In this document: positions 11,535 to 25,782 of the stretch, piece by piece
Position numbering within the stretch: the stretch's first letter is position 1
How the letters are laid out: each line of letters opens with the position of its first letter
NCBI GenBank assembly: GCA_029977665.1
Contig: JAPOKK010000010.1
Span: 1 to 34,946, forward strand
DNA from: Pseudomonadota bacterium
Lineage (GTDB): Bacteria; Pseudomonadota; Gammaproteobacteria; Ga0077536
DNA length: 34,946 nucleotides
Direction: 5' to 3'
Notes under the pieces: generated by a model
What the model saw: only the letters and a program-made list of their open reading frames with translations
Told to the model about the DNA's origin: nothing
Database searches by the model: none
Position numbers and translations under genes: made by a program

Positions 11535-12323
11535 ATTTCCGCCGCCACCATCAAGACCCGGACCGCCGATGGGGTCCTCCACGTGCTCATCGACCGCGCG
11601 GCCAAGCGCAATGCCCTCGCCCAGGCCGTACTCGGGGAACTCGGCGATGCCTTTCGCGCGCACGCCGGGGACGCCGACCTGCGCCTTGCCGTGATCCGCG
11701 GCGCGGGCGAACGCTGTTTCGCCGCCGGCGGCGACCTGCACGAGTTCGAGGGTCTGCGCGAACCCGACGCCGTGCGCGAGATGAACCGCTTCTCGACGGC
11801 GGCGCTCGACACCATCCGCGATTTCCCGGTGCCGGTCGTCGCCGCCATGAACGGCGACGCCATCGGTGGTGGCGGCGAGCTCGCGCTGGCCTGCGACATG
11901 CGCGTGTTCGCGCGCCACGCGCGCATCGGCTTCGTGCAGGGCCAGATGTGCATCTCGACCGCCTGGGGCGGCGGCGCCGACCTCATGCGCGTGGCCGGCC
12001 CGGCCACCGCGCTGCGCATGCTCACTCGCGCCGAGTTCATCGCCGCCGAGGAAGCGCGAGTGCTCGGGCTGGCCGACGCGGTGCAGGATGCGGACGAAGA
12101 TTTCGAACAGGCGCTCGAGCGCTACCTCGCGCCGATGCGCGAGCGCAAGCCGCAGATCATGCGCGCCTACAAGACGCTCGCCCGCGCCGCGCGACAGGAC
12201 GACGCGTGGCGCGCGGTGCGCGCCGCGGAACCCGCCCTGCTGGAAGCGACCTGGCTGCACGAGGATCACTGGACGGCCTCGGCCGCGGCGATCGCGCGCA
12301 TCGCGGCAAAGAAGCAGGCCTGA
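11535..12323 (+). CDS. Enoyl-CoA hydratase/isomerase family protein; probable ATT start at 11535
   Basis: LIDRAAKRNALAQAVLGEL; GERCFAAGGDLHEF; ALACDMRVFARHARIGF. The N-terminal family residues (TIKTRTADGVLHVLIDR) need a start upstream of GTG 11583; GAGGAGAG sits 5-6 nt before ATT 11535. Confidence 0.82.
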   Translation: MSAATIKTRTADGVLHVLIDRAAKRNALAQAVLGELGDAFRAHAGDADLRLAVIRGAGERCFAAGGDLHEFEGLREPDAVREMNRFSTAALDTIRDFPVPVVAAMNGDAIGGGGELALACDMRVFARHARIGFVQGQMCISTAWGGGADLMRVAGPATALRMLTRAEFIAAEEARVLGLADAVQDADEDFEQALERYLAPMRERKPQIMRAYKTLARAARQDDAWRAVRAAEPALLEATWLHEDHWTASAAAIARIAAKKQA

Positions 12324-12338
12324 CTCAGCGCGCCTCAC

Positions 12339-13385
12339 TCAGCGCGCCCGGGCGTCGCGCCGGCACGCGCTCGGCGAGCGCCCGGTCCACTGGCGAAAGG
12401 CCCGCGCGAAGCTCTTCTCGTTGTCGAAACCCACCGCGCGCGCAACCTGCGCGACGGGACGCTGGGTCCGCTGCAACAGCGCGATAGCGCGCGCGCAGCG
12501 CGCTTCGTTCTTGAGCGTCTGCAAAGACACGCCGGCCTCGCGCAGATGACGGAACAGCGTGCGCGTGGACACATTCAGGCGATGCGCGAGCGCGGCCGCG
12601 TCGCGCACCTCGTCCGGGCGCGCGGCGATGATCTCGCGCGCGCGGCGCACGAGCAGCCGGTCGCGGCGGTACTGCAACACCGTCAACGGCAGCGCGCGGC
12701 GCAGCATCTGGCGCAGGGCCGCTTCGTCGCGCACCAGCGGCAGGGCCGCGTAGCGTGCGTCGAACGCGAAGCCCGCCTCTGCTGCGTCGAAACGGACCGG
12801 CCCCGGGAACATCAGCGGGTAGGCCTCAGCATGCGCCGGACGCGGGTAAGGGAAGTGCACTTCGAGCAGCGGAATGCGCGAGTCGACGGCCCAGCAAGCG
12901 TAGCCGTGCACGTAGCGCAGCAGGGTCACGAGGCAGAACTCGCGCGACGCGCGCGGCGCGCGCCGCTCTTCGATGACGAGACTCGCGCGGGTGTCATCGA
13001 GCCGCAACACCAAGTGCACGTCGTCTATCAGCAATGCGTGGTGGCGGCACCAGCGTTTGAGAGCGACGGCGAGATCGGGCGCGCCGAGGGAGGCGCGGCA
13101 CAGCATGCCGTAGCTGCCCCACGGCAGCCGGCGCGAGAACCAGCCGAGCGCTTCGTCGTCGAGCTCGCGCATCGCGGCTTCCGAGACGCGTTCCATCTGA
13201 ACCGCGGTAATGCGCGCGGACGGGTCGCGGACCGTGGCGGGATCGATGCCGGCGGCGGCGAGCGCCGCGGCAGGATCCTGACCATAACGGGCGTACGCGT
13301 CGACGATCGCGCGCACGAAAACCATCGGCGTAGCCGCACGCGAACCACCGCCCCACGGCACGACCCCGGCGGGAGGCGCTTTCAT
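12339..13385 (-). CDS. AraC family transcriptional regulator (Arabinose_bd-type N-terminal domain)
   Basis: C-terminal HTH: AALAHRLNVSTRTLFRHLREAGVSLQTLKNEARCARAIALLQ...VAQVARAVGFDNEKSFARAFRQWTGRSPSACRR; 348 aa from ATG at 13385. Confidence 0.88.
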   Translation of the reverse strand: MKAPPAGVVPWGGGSRAATPMVFVRAIVDAYARYGQDPAAALAAAGIDPATVRDPSARITAVQMERVSEAAMRELDDEALGWFSRRLPWGSYGMLCRASLGAPDLAVALKRWCRHHALLIDDVHLVLRLDDTRASLVIEERRAPRASREFCLVTLLRYVHGYACWAVDSRIPLLEVHFPYPRPAHAEAYPLMFPGPVRFDAAEAGFAFDARYAALPLVRDEAALRQMLRRALPLTVLQYRRDRLLVRRAREIIAARPDEVRDAAALAHRLNVSTRTLFRHLREAGVSLQTLKNEARCARAIALLQRTQRPVAQVARAVGFDNEKSFARAFRQWTGRSPSACRRDARAR

Positions 13386-13404
13386 GCGCTGACTATCGAT
13401 TGAT

Positions 13405-13431
13405 ATGGCACGATTTGCAACCTTCATGGCA
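13405..13431. promoter_or_regulatory. Candidate AraC-family operator: direct repeat ATGGCA-N15-ATGGCA (21-bp period)
   Basis: ATGGCA at 13405-13410 and 13426-13431 in the divergent gap between the AraC gene and liuA-like gene. Confidence 0.4.
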
Positions 13432-13560
13432 GCCCCTGCGGCGTCTACCGCGCTAGGCTGGCGACGCCGCCCGAACCGCGGTGGGCTATCCTGTCGCGCC
13501 CCGCGTGGCGGGCGCGGCGCGCACGCCGTACCGATTGCACAGCACCATGGAGAAACCGAC

Positions 13561-14736
13561 ATGAACAACCTGCCGGGCATCAGCTTCGACCTCGGCGATA
13601 CCGTCGACATGCTGCGCGAGTCCGTGGCGGACTTCGCCGCCAACGAGATCGCGCCGCGCGCGCAGGACATCGAGCAGGCCAACGAGTTTCCCGCCGACCT
13701 GTGGCGCAAGCTCGGCGACCTCGGCGTGCACGGCGTGACCGTTGCCGAAGAATACGGTGGCGCAAATCTCGGCTACCTCGCGCACATCGTCGCGATGGAG
13801 GAGGTCTCGCGTGCCTCGGCCGCCGTCGGCCTGTCCTACGGCGCGCATTCCAACCTGTGCGTGAACCAGATTCACCGCAACGGCAACGCCGCGCAGAAGG
13901 CGCGCTACCTGCCCAAGCTGGTCTCCGGCGAGCACGTCGGCGCACTTGCCATGAGCGAACCCAACGCGGGTTCGGACGTGGTATCGATGAAGCTGCGCGC
14001 CGACCGTCGCGGTGACTGCTACGTACTCAACGGCTCGAAGATGTGGATCACCAATGGCGGCGACGCCGACACCCTCGTCGTCTACGCCAAGACCGATCCC
14101 GATGCCGGCCCGCGCGGCATGACCGCGTTCATCGTCGAGAAGGGCTTCGCCGGCTTCTCCAAGGGCACCAAGCTCGACAAGCTCGGCATGCGCGGCTCGA
14201 ACACCTACCCGATCTTCTTCGACGACTGCGAGGTGCCGGTGGAAAACGTCCTCGGCGCGGTCGGCGACGGCGTGCGCGTGCTGATGTCGGGTCTCGACTA
14301 CGAGCGCGCGGTGCTCGCGGCCGGCCCGCTCGGCATCATGGACGCCTGCATGGACGTGGTGCTGCCCTACGTGCACGAGCGCGAGCAGTTCGGCCAGCCG
14401 ATCGGCGAATTCCAGCTCATGCAGGGCAAGCTCGCCGACATGTACACCACCTGGCAGGCCTGCCGTGCCTATGTCTATGCCGTCGGGCGCGCCTGCGACG
14501 CCGGCGACCACAGCCGCAACCTGCGCAAGGACGCTGCCGGCGCCATCCTCTACGCGGCCGAGAAGGCGACCTGGATGGCGGGCGAGGCCATCCAGACGCT
14601 GGGCGGCAATGGCTACATCAACGAGTATGCGACCGGCCGCCTGTGGCGTGACGCCAAGCTCTACGAGATCGGCGCCGGCACCTCGGAGATCCGCCGCATG
14701 CTGATCGGCCGCGAACTGTTCAGCGACACCAAGTAA
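13561..14736 (+). CDS. liuA: Isovaleryl-CoA dehydrogenase-like acyl-CoA dehydrogenase
   Basis: [43 protein letters not shown]-type [18 protein letters not shown]; directly followed by methylcrotonyl-CoA carboxylase subunits. Confidence 0.88.
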
Positions 14737-21939: not shown

Positions 21940-22404
21940 ATGGATCACCTACCCATGACCGACAGCACCCCCAACGCGGTATTCGTTGGCACCTGGCAGC
22001 TCGTCGAGAGCTATTCGGACAAGCCCTCCGGGCGTGTCGCCTTCCCACTCGGCGAGCACGTCGTCGGGCGTATCAACTACGACGCTGCCGGCAACATGGC
22101 CGCGCAGCTCATGGGCGAGGGACGCAAACCCTTCTCCTCGCGCGATCCCCGCGAGGTGGCCGATGCCGAGTATCGCGAAGCCTTCCAAAGCTATACCGCC
22201 TATTTCGGCACCTACACGGTCGACAGCGAAGCGGGCACGGTGACCCATCACGTGCAGGGTGCGACCGTACCCAACTGGCCCGGGCAGGACCAGGTCCGCT
22301 TCTACGAATTCTCCGGTGATCGCCTGGTCCTCAAGACACCGCCGATGCGCGGCAACGACGGCGAGAAAGCGATCCACACGCTGGTCTGGCAGAAAGTCAT
22401 CTGA
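21940..22404 (+). CDS. Lipocalin-like domain protein
   Basis: VGTWQLVESYSDKPSGRVAFPLGEHVVGRINYDAAGNMAAQLM...YFGTYTVDSEAGTVTHHVQGATVPNWPGQDQVRFYEFSGDRLVLKTPP. Start could be 21955. Confidence 0.78.
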   Translation: MDHLPMTDSTPNAVFVGTWQLVESYSDKPSGRVAFPLGEHVVGRINYDAAGNMAAQLMGEGRKPFSSRDPREVADAEYREAFQSYTAYFGTYTVDSEAGTVTHHVQGATVPNWPGQDQVRFYEFSGDRLVLKTPPMRGNDGEKAIHTLVWQKVI

Positions 22405-22652
22405 CTGTCACGCGCCCTTGCCCCGGCGCCGGCCGCTCGGGGCGCCTGCGGGTCACCGCGCCCCGCCAACGGGTTCCCTGTTCTGCTTCCCCTTTCCGAG
22501 GGCCATGACGCCAAGCGCCATGACACGAACCGGTGGTGGCGATGATGGCGCCGTATCGAAACCCTGATCCGTGTCAGCATGCCACGCGAGGCGACGCGCG
22601 AGATTGGTGCTCGTCACCTATACCGACCCGAAACACGGGAGGAGACCGCGCC

Positions 22653-22964
22653 ATGGCCGACCAGTCATTCGAAGCTTTCATGAAACGCATTCAGGAGGAC
22701 GACGCGCTCGAACAGGAGTTGCGCGCGAAGCTCGGCGATCCGGCCGAGGGCATCGCCGCCGCCGACCTCGAACGCTTTGCCGCCGAGAAAGGGTACGCGT
22801 TCGACCTCGAGGAAATCTCGGGCGAACTCAGCGACGAAGACCTCGAGGCTGTCGCGGGCGGTACCGGCACGTTCAGCTCACTCGTCGGCGACGTCTCGAT
22901 CAAGTTCTACTCGCCGAGCACGCTGGTCTTCCCGAAGATCGAGTCCACCATCATCAAGTGGTGA
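22653..22964 (+). CDS. Nif11-like/NHLP leader RiPP precursor peptide (103 aa)
   Basis: SFEAFMKRIQEDDALEQELRAKLGD...ADLERFAAEKGYAFDLEEISGELSDEDLEAVAGG followed by 33-aa core TGTFSSLVGDVSIKFYSPSTLVFPKIESTIIKW; GGGAGGAG RBS upstream. Confidence 0.88.
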   Translation: MADQSFEAFMKRIQEDDALEQELRAKLGDPAEGIAAADLERFAAEKGYAFDLEEISGELSDEDLEAVAGGTGTFSSLVGDVSIKFYSPSTLVFPKIESTIIKW

Positions 22965-24454
22965 GCGCGCGTTGCGCCGATACTGTCGAGACGCCCCTGC
23001 CGCGTCTCGACGAGCCCGGCCTCGCGAATCGCGTAAGGCGCGTTCTTGGCGACGCCGCCTACCGCGCGGCGAACGTCGACGCCCTGCTCGGCCGAGCGCC
23101 GGCGAACTGGCGTCGCGAAGCGGCGTCACAGGCTCTCCGGGACGAAAACGACACGCCGCTTGCCACGCTGGTCAAGCTGTTCTGCGGCGGGCGGCACGTC
23201 GCCGCCGGCGTGCTGGATGCAGCGATCGGTCACGCCGGGTCGGCGACGCTCGAAGCCGCCGGCCTCATCGTGCGCAACGGCGCCGAAGCGCGCGCGACGG
23301 TGCAGCTCACGCCCCATGGCGAGCACCTCTATGCCCACGACCTGCCCGCGCGACATCATGCGCGCGCCGCGGATTTCGTCGTCGGGCCGTCGCCGGTCGC
23401 ACGCCTGCTCGGCGCACTGACCGTGCCGGCATCCGTCGAGCGCGCGCTCGACCTCGGCTGCGGCGCAGGCGTGCTCGCCCTCGACACGCTGGCAGGCGCA
23501 GGCGAAGTCACGGCCGTCGACATCAATCCGCGGGCCGCGGCCCTGACCCGCTTCAACGCCGCGCTGAACGGCTGCGACAACGTCACCACGCGTACGGGCG
23601 ATCTCTTCGCCCCGCTCGGTGAGGCGCGTTTCGATCTCATCGTCAGCAATCCCCCGTTCGTCATCGCCCCGCGCACCACGTTCATCTATCGCGACGGCGG
23701 CGCGCCGATCTGCGCGCGCATCGTGCGCGAAGCACCGGCCCATCTCGCCACGAACGGCATCCTGCAGATGCTGTGCAACTGGCCCGAGCGCTCCGGGCGC
23801 GACTGGCGCGAGGTACCCCGGAGCTGGTTCGACGGCTGTGAATGCGACGCCTGGGTGCTGCGCCTGCGCTCTCAGTCCGCGCTCGAGTACGCGCTTGCCT
23901 GGCTCGGCCAGGAGCATGCCGGCGCGCCGGTACCGGCCGCGGCACTGGCGGAATGGACCAATCACCTCGCCGGTCACGACATCGCGGCCGTCGGCACCGG
24001 GCTGGTCGTCATGCGCCGCACGAGCGGGCGCCCGCCGTGGCTCGAGCTGCGCGACGCGCCGCCGCTGCGCGGCCCGGCGGGCGCGGCGATCGCACGGGTA
24101 CTCATGGCGCGTGATGCGGCAGCGCGGCTGCGCGACGACGCCGCGCTCCTCGAAGCGCGCCTGCGCCCCGCCCCGGACCTCGAATACCAAACGCGGAAAC
24201 GCCCCGGGGGCAACGGTTGGCTTGCCTCGGGCGCCGAACTGCGCTTTTCCCGCGGCCTCTGTTTCGCCGTCAAAGCAGACCCGGTCGCGACGGCCCTGCT
24301 GGGTCACCTCGACGGCGACCGCAGCGTGTCCGAAGCGCTCGAACGCGTTGCCGCGCAGGGCGGCGTCACGCCGGCCCTGTTGCTGCCGCAGCTGCCCGCC
24401 GCCGTGCGCCGCTTACTCCACCTCGGACTGTTGGTTCCGGCAGGGGCGGGCTGA
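22961..24454 (+). CDS. Class I SAM-dependent methyltransferase (MT-small/HemK-like, NPPF motif) with N- and C-terminal extra domains, putative RiPP tailoring enzyme; GTG start
   Basis: SAM motif ALDLGCGAGVLALDTLAGAGEVTAVDINPRA; catalytic motif FDLIVSNPPFVIAP; GTGA overlap with the precursor gene; C-terminal winged-helix-like tail. Confidence 0.85.
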   Translation: MSARCADTVETPLPRLDEPGLANRVRRVLGDAAYRAANVDALLGRAPANWRREAASQALRDENDTPLATLVKLFCGGRHVAAGVLDAAIGHAGSATLEAAGLIVRNGAEARATVQLTPHGEHLYAHDLPARHHARAADFVVGPSPVARLLGALTVPASVERALDLGCGAGVLALDTLAGAGEVTAVDINPRAAALTRFNAALNGCDNVTTRTGDLFAPLGEARFDLIVSNPPFVIAPRTTFIYRDGGAPICARIVREAPAHLATNGILQMLCNWPERSGRDWREVPRSWFDGCECDAWVLRLRSQSALEYALAWLGQEHAGAPVPAAALAEWTNHLAGHDIAAVGTGLVVMRRTSGRPPWLELRDAPPLRGPAGAAIARVLMARDAAARLRDDAALLEARLRPAPDLEYQTRKRPGGNGWLASGAELRFSRGLCFAVKADPVATALLGHLDGDRSVSEALERVAAQGGVTPALLLPQLPAAVRRLLHLGLLVPAGAG

Positions 24455-24486: not shown

Positions 24487-25680
24487 CTAACCGCCCGCTT
24501 CGCGGAGCAGCTCGCCGGCGATGATGACCTGGCGAATCTGGTTGCTGCCGGCGGCAATCTCGCCGACCTTGCCGCTGCGGTAGAGTCGGTTGACCTCGGT
24601 CTCGCGCATGAAGCCCATGCCGCCGTGGATCTGCACGGCCTGATCGAGTACGCGCATCGCGCCGCGCCCGGCGGCGAGCAGCGCGGCGGCAGAGCGCTTG
24701 TGTACCACGCCGCGCCCGCCCTCGCCTTCGGGCAGGTCGACGATCTCGCGTCCTACCTGGTAGGTCAGCGCGCGCATCGCTTCGATCTCGGTGTACATGT
24801 CGGCAAGCATGGCCTGGACCATCTGGAACTCGCCGATGGCGCGCCCGAACTGCTTGCGCTGGCCGGCGTAATCGAGCGCGAGGTCGAACGCGCGCTGGGC
24901 GATGCCGATATCGAAGAACGCGCCGATGACGCGCTCGATGTCGAGCCCGCTCATCATCACGATGTGACCCGCGTTCTCTTCGCCGACCAGGTTGCCGGCG
25001 GGCACCCGGCAGTCGTCGAACACGAGCTCGCCGGTGGGACTGCCGCGCCAGCCCATCTTGTCGAGCTTCTGCGCGACCGAGAAACCGGGGAAGCTTTTTT
25101 CGACGATGAACGCCGAGATGCCTTTCTGTCGCTTCTCCGGCGCGGTCTTGGCGTAGACCAGCAACACGTCGGCGACCGGCCCGTTGGTGATGAACAGCTT
25201 ACGACCGTTCAGCACGTAGTCATCGCCGTCGCGCCGTGCCGTCGTCGCCATCGAGCCGAGCGCGTCCGAGCCCGCGCCGGGCTCGGTCATGCCGAGCGCG
25301 CCAATCACCGAGCCGTCGCAGAAACGCGGCAGGTATTCGCGCTTCTGCGCCTCACTCGCGTTGCGCACAAGGTTGTGCAGACACAGGTTGTCACTGGCCA
25401 GCATGCCGGCCGCGATGGAGTGATTCCAGTAGGCCACTGCCTCGGCGATAAAGCACTGCGCAAGCACGTCCATGCCGCCGCCGCCGAACTCGGTCGGCAC
25501 GGTGACGCCGAGCAGACCCTGTTCGGCGAGACCACGAAACGCGGCCTCGGGGAACCAGTCTTCATTGTCCATGCGCTCGCACAGTTCGTAGAGTTCGTCG
25601 CGCGCGTAGCGGTAGGCGAGATCGTAGACGGCCTGGTAGTCGGCATCGAAACCGAAGGATTCGAGGTTGGGAATGCTCAT
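24487..25680 (-). CDS. Acyl-CoA dehydrogenase
   Basis: GALGMTEPGAGSDALGSMATTA; NGRKLFITNGPVADVLLVYAKT; VQIHGGMGFMRETEVNRLYRSGKVGEIAAGSNQI. Confidence 0.9.
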   Translation of the reverse strand: MSIPNLESFGFDADYQAVYDLAYRYARDELYELCERMDNEDWFPEAAFRGLAEQGLLGVTVPTEFGGGGMDVLAQCFIAEAVAYWNHSIAAGMLASDNLCLHNLVRNASEAQKREYLPRFCDGSVIGALGMTEPGAGSDALGSMATTARRDGDDYVLNGRKLFITNGPVADVLLVYAKTAPEKRQKGISAFIVEKSFPGFSVAQKLDKMGWRGSPTGELVFDDCRVPAGNLVGEENAGHIVMMSGLDIERVIGAFFDIGIAQRAFDLALDYAGQRKQFGRAIGEFQMVQAMLADMYTEIEAMRALTYQVGREIVDLPEGEGGRGVVHKRSAAALLAAGRGAMRVLDQAVQIHGGMGFMRETEVNRLYRSGKVGEIAAGSNQIRQVIIAGELLREAGG

Positions 25681-25782
25681 GGGTGTTGTCCCCGTGCAGG
25701 ACCGGTGCGGCACCGGCATGCTCACGTGCGTGGATGGAGGAATGGCGCCGCGCCCGACCGCTCGAGCCGGCGAGGCGGCCGG

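Follow-up and report, generated by a model that had tools for sequence, protein, structure and literature searches.

A candidate lineage-restricted, RiPP-like locus pairing a Nif11-leader precursor gene with an overlapping gene for a probable class I N-methyltransferase that carries an RRE-like domain

The window, that is, the whole stretch of 34,946 nucleotides that was analysed, contains two overlapping plus-strand genes between a lipocalin-like gene and an acyl-CoA dehydrogenase gene. The first encodes a short peptide with a Nif11 leader, and the second encodes a methyltransferase whose Pfam architecture is DUF7059, MTS and DUF7782. The features of the locus are as follows.

21940..22404, plus strand: lipocalin-like protein, the upstream flank and left edge of a junction at which sister genera lack the pair
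22637..22644, plus strand: Shine-Dalgarno-like GGGAGGAG, 8 nt upstream of the precursor ATG (read directly)
22653..22964, plus strand: Nif11-leader precursor gene, 103 aa and stop (profile matches; orthologue in G016/L012)
22653..22862, plus strand: leader, residues 1-70, with the double-Gly end ELSDEDLEAVAGG (TIGR03798 match over residues 1-70)
22863..22961, plus strand: core of 33 aa, TGTFSSLVGDVSIKFYSPSTLVFPKIESTIIKW (read from the translation)
22961..22964, plus strand: GTGA, in which the GTG start of the enzyme gene overlaps the TGA stop of the precursor gene (read directly; same overlap in L004)
22961..24454, plus strand: methyltransferase gene, 497 aa and stop, GTG start (Pfam; AlphaFold model with mean pLDDT 85.3 and pTM 0.86)
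23054..23299, plus strand: N-terminal helical domain, Pfam DUF7059, residues 32-113 (34.9 bits, cut-off 27)
23420..23779, plus strand: catalytic MTS domain, residues 154-273 (72.2 bits, cut-off 23)
23447-23470, plus strand: SAM motif LDLGCGAG (motif alignment)
23648-23659, plus strand: NPPF motif (motif alignment)
24131..24439, plus strand: RRE-like domain, Pfam DUF7782, residues 391-493 (Pfam, profile, model and Foldseek)
24487..25725, minus strand: acyl-CoA dehydrogenase, the downstream flank, bounding the same junction on the right

As evident from the profile scores, the leader is of the Nif11 type, with 26.6 bits against Pfam Nif11 (PF07862; curated cut-off of 23.8) and 36.8 bits against TIGR03798 (curated cut-off of 32.3). 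An earlier sequence-only reading had described a Nif11/NHLP precursor; the first half of that label was retained, and an NHLP/proteusin leader was ruled out at 13.3 bits against a TIGR03793 cut-off of 50.9. The 103-residue ORF, its leader end and its 33-residue core were found at the positions and with the sequences which that reading had given. The double-Gly leader end followed by a 33-residue core was also found in the orthologue from a second species of the same genus. The core contains no Asn, Gln, Cys, Arg, His or Met and has three Lys residues, all of which are kept in the second species. The absence of Cys excludes thioether or thiazole chemistry on that residue, and a ProcA-like lanthipeptide was ruled out by the Cys-free core and the absence of LanM among the scanned window genes.

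The precursor-enzyme pair recurs in the second species with an identical GTGA overlap, where the peptide is 92% and the enzyme 84% identical; among the 36 genomes of the family examined, this was the only other one with an orthologue of the enzyme, and no instance of the pair was found outside this genus. The translational coupling proposed from the sequence was upheld in two species, and the pairing is not unique to one strain. In the two-species comparison, dN/dS was 0.12 for the precursor overall (0.064 for the leader and 0.40 for the core, a stretch of just 33 codons), whereas the enzyme gave 0.25; these ratios indicate purifying selection on both genes. The recurrence of the pair and its overlap, together with the low dN/dS values, argues against a chance arrangement. 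The core showed four changes and is thus not hypervariable, at least between these two species.

In two sister genera (six genomes, of which one is g10 and five are g9), the two flanking genes were found directly adjacent and convergent, with no pair between them, the aligned coding regions of the flanks lying some 40 to 220 nt apart. Two histories would account for this comparison, joint insertion of the pair in this genus or its joint loss from the others. Each of them takes the two genes as a unit, and the pair looks like a two-gene cassette. The other scanned window genes encode Mla transport, aldehyde dehydrogenase, LigB-type dioxygenase, biotin carboxylase, FAA hydrolase, P450, acyl-CoA dehydrogenase, thiolase-like and molybdopterin dehydrogenase proteins, a set typical of common metabolic and transport functions that includes no RiPP maturase. 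As had been stated from the sequence, no LanM, radical SAM, YcaO, C39 transporter or protease was found in the Pfam scan of the main window genes. Additionally, Rfam gave no match in the window, and the scans for promoters and terminators yielded no hits beyond chance level.

The solved fold nearest to the enzyme model was GenN, the gentamicin N-3'' methyltransferase (Foldseek E 6e-22), followed by AerE (E 5e-18, TM of 0.70-0.72 on AerE length), and past these two the ranking fell clearly to about 1e-10. Sequence profiles pointed to the same two groups, and GenN was also the closest solved protein by sequence (phmmer E 4e-24). GenN N-methylates an amine, but its substrate is a small molecule, it has NSPT in place of NPPF, and it has no C-terminal RRE-like domain. 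The sequence-only reading had taken the enzyme for a HemK/MT-small type; the LDLGCGAG and SNPPF motifs it named are present, but the HemK label proved loose, the models scoring far below their cut-offs. A HemK/PrmC N5-glutamine methyltransferase was ruled out (TIGR03534, 63.5 against 199.1 bits, with GenN and AerE closer). Its separation of the enzyme from the borosin fold held good, since only class I MTS-type families and no tetrapyrrole methylase matched in Pfam, and a borosin enzyme was thus rejected. Borosins, with their backbone alpha-N-methyltransferases, are comparable as methylated RiPPs in which a methyltransferase is the main enzyme, but their enzyme has another fold and the window precursor has no borosin features.

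The closest RiPP comparison, which was absent from the earlier reading, is the proteusin N-methyltransferase AerE. AerE and PoyE, which act on Asn side chains in aeronamide and polytheonamide, have in common with the window enzyme the overall fold, including the N-terminal region, and an NPPF motif with Asn at the catalytic position, and they too belong to a RiPP setting, with a long structured leader. In contrast, the aligned region of AerE contains no RRE-like C-terminal domain, and the leader in the window is Nif11 rather than NHLP. When the positions mutated in the AerE structures were aligned, with the common Gly-Pro and NPPF motifs as anchors, Tyr137, Asp141 and Asn231 of AerE corresponded to Val140, Ser144 and Asn230, so that only the Asn was kept. 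AerE methylates its proteusin independently of the leader (PMC11285071). Methylation of Asn or Gln in the window core was ruled out, as neither residue is present (Asn is also absent from the core of the orthologue), and an AerE-type reaction on this core is therefore unlikely. By its composition, the core has Lys amines as its only side-chain nitrogens besides the Trp indole; alternatively, the methyl group may go to an oxygen, or to the N-terminus that cleavage exposes on the core.

The C-terminal domain, modelled alone as residues 391-497 (pLDDT 81), was predicted to run strand-strand-strand-helix-helix-helix, which agrees with the strict RRE order of three strands and then three helices (PMC12710340). 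Foldseek matches of this domain with a probability >0.6 formed three groups: the carbamoyltransferases GdmN and NovN (11 chains), the mycobacterial lysine methyltransferase Rv2067c (2 chains), and PqqD or RRE-bearing RiPP proteins, leader-bound lasso B1 included (10 chains, best TM 0.69). In particular, PqqD (5sxy) and the leader-bound lasso RREs 6jx3, 5v1v and 5v1u were matched with a probability of 0.99-1.00 and a TM of 0.66-0.69 on target length, yet with E values of only 0.009-0.05. By sequence, the PqqD profile matched five of the seven members of the enzyme family (best E 0.009) but stayed below its cut-off (16.8 against 23.4 bits), and the model of the RiPP protein ApyI matched with E 0.001 at 18.5 bits, against a cut-off of 200 for what is a whole-protein model. 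Winged helices are known to be mistaken for RREs (PMC12710340). On the predicted structure, the RRE-like domain is the strongest pointer to peptide recognition; it is found family-wide and is thus not specific to the Nif11 pair. No RRE-methyltransferase fusion is described in those parts of the two RRE surveys (PMC7470986, PMC12710340) whose text was searched. The match to GdmN may be set beside a separate observation, namely that some relatives are fused to a carbamoyltransferase, with a methyltransferase-like domain behind it (L169:1-2997); long ORFs resembling this fusion are present in L148, L170 and L172.

The same three-domain architecture, RRE-like domain included, was found in Desulfobacterota, Planctomycetota and Actinobacteria, without a Nif11 gene, and the closest of these relatives are 34-40% identical to the window enzyme. 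Matches came from 8 Desulfobacterota and 31 Planctomycetota genomes, of about 350 each; among the matches listed, no Nif11 gene was present in the flanks examined. Nor was one found near any of the roughly three dozen relatives examined or in the whole genomes of ten relatives outside the genus (E 0.001). No Nif11-methyltransferase pair was found in plasmids among the matches listed, and no other small precursor-like ORF was conserved beside the relatives in the flanks examined. The neighbourhood search that the sequence-only reading had proposed thus went against a general pairing: homologues are mostly not beside Nif11 ORFs, and among the matches listed the pair was seen in a single genus, although more distant pairs may have escaped this listing. 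Several close relatives instead have type VI secretion neighbours, namely VipA/VipB (L144, L145), Hcp (L184, L186), ImpE (L153), and VgrG with VasE (L185). Besides L144, L145 and L153, the type VI-linked loci are L182:10488-12074, L183:10894-16818, L184:7111-7647, L185:3317-4783 and 12184-14400, and L186:7236-7790. These neighbourhoods suggest that the Desulfobacterota and Planctomycetota relatives are T6SS-linked protein methyltransferases with an RRE-like domain. Given these settings and the absence of Nif11 genes, the enzymes do not as a whole form a RiPP family; within the genus of the window species, the enzyme was apparently brought together with a Nif11 precursor.

Several side observations were made on this family. 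Tandem methyltransferase copies are present in Planctomycetota (L156 / L187:8174-11184 in G1194; G1169:C92:4641-7718), and one copy in G1169 has an internal stop. A homologue in Alteraurantiacibacter aquimixticola (L020 / L008, with the same sequence in G511) is apparently cut at its 5' end and lies just downstream of a transposase-like gene. In the open-access literature searched, neither DUF7782 nor DUF7059 is mentioned, nor is a Nif11 gene with a lone methyltransferase.

The settings of the relatives bear on an alternative in which the enzyme belongs to a widespread family of general protein methyltransferases, type VI-linked in other phyla, and was acquired or kept beside a Nif11 gene, its main substrate and the ligand of its C-terminal domain being another protein. 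The type VI neighbours, the absence of Nif11 near any relative and the family-wide RRE-like domain all speak for it. However, the start-stop overlap with the precursor gene is kept in two species, and it is the pair, rather than the enzyme alone, that fills the junction empty in sister genera. The enzyme of the genus also lies on a long separate branch of 1.16 changes per site that holds the two genus members only, which is consistent with a shifted role. We consider this alternative unlikely, though somewhat likelier than the two that follow.

A second alternative concerns the remaining steps of maturation. Haft et al. reported that precursors can be far from their modification genes (PMC2887384), and the methyltransferase could be one tailoring step of a multi-enzyme RiPP pathway scattered over the genome, with other maturases, a protease and an exporter acting in trans. 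In the sister species G016, a contig other than that of the pair encodes a complete NHLP-type export system (L139:8025-14737), with TIGR03794, TIGR03796 and TIGR03797 over their cut-offs and the C39 cysteine motif intact, so that other pathway parts may act from elsewhere. In contrast, the sole C39-type match in the window genome (4.2 Mb) has no cysteine motif and no canonical leader-cleaving C39 exporter was found there; the genome has only one Nif11 gene over the cut-off, and the Cys-free core leaves no room for Cys thioether or thiazole chemistry. A scattered pathway is accordingly quite improbable in our view. Least probable of all, and clearly disfavoured, is that the Nif11 protein assists the enzyme as a small regulator or chaperone-like partner (e.g., an activator) and stays uncleaved and whole inside the cell: its overall conservation above that of the enzyme and the absence of an exporter among the scanned window genes fit this, but it has a typical double-glycine leader end and a separate 33-residue tail under weaker constraint than the leader (0.40 versus 0.064, on few codons).

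Two more Nif11-like precursors were observed in G017, a genome from a different genus of the same family (L107:1435-1749 and L110:1483-1743). One overlaps a DUF4135 (LanM-type) gene, and the other precedes a 443-aa gene that carries a CxxxCxxC-like motif, was not matched by Pfam and looks radical-SAM-like by eye. Nif11 leaders habitually serve different enzymes (Haft et al., PMC2887384), and precursors beside different enzymes within one bacterial family fit this habit. The window locus is related to prochlorosin-type Nif11 lanthipeptides and other Nif11 RiPPs through its leader family and through the G017 precursor beside a DUF4135 gene, but differs from the prochlorosin type in having no LanM, no Cys in the core and a methyltransferase as partner.

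Our preferred reading, to which we give a probability of about one half, is that the pair is a two-gene peptide-modification cassette in which an RRE-guided methyltransferase methylates its partner peptide, perhaps on Lys. The first gene would supply the Nif11-leader precursor and the second, translationally coupled, an N-methyltransferase of the GenN/AerE group with an RRE-like domain at its own C-terminus. Binding of the leader, or of its end, to this domain would bring the 33-residue core into the active site for methylation at one or more residues. As Asn and Gln are absent from the core, the three conserved Lys side chains would be the likeliest nitrogen acceptors. An enzyme encoded elsewhere would then remove the leader after Gly-Gly, and export presumably follows.

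For the cassette reading speak the Nif11 cut-offs passed, the recurring overlap, the selection on both genes, the empty junction, the GenN/AerE folds and the RRE-like domain, as do the Nif11 precursors of the same bacterial family whose neighbours encode a LanM-type dehydratase domain and a further enzyme. Against it stand the widespread occurrence of the architecture without Nif11, the RRE sequence matches below their cut-offs, the GdmN and Rv2067c matches, the restriction to one genus, the lack of a canonical C39 exporter in the window genome, and the leader independence of AerE. A clean RiPP reading is further weakened by the core without Asn or Gln and by the difference at two of the three residues mutated in AerE. 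The pair is nonetheless real and unit-like, and the enzyme carries the features expected of a precursor-guided methyltransferase. A narrower version, in which the locus is a self-contained RiPP type whose methyltransferase, drawn from a type VI-linked family, recognises the Nif11 leader through its built-in RRE and methylates the core (probably on Lys amines) as the sole maturation, is tentative and rather unlikely. The methylation-only class put forward by the sequence-only reading is a testable hypothesis, against which the narrow distribution and the non-RiPP settings of the relatives count. On present sequence comparisons, the locus is best read as RiPP-like, with a Nif11 leader and a probable class I N-methyltransferase, and as lineage-restricted.

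If the cassette reading is true, the locus would be a small system of two genes, easy to test, in which an RRE fused to the methyltransferase guides the methylation. It would also hint at a substrate for the DUF7059-MTS-DUF7782 methyltransferases, which are otherwise uncharacterised, including those beside type VI genes, and would mean that Nif11 leaders pass between unrelated enzyme partners within one bacterial family.
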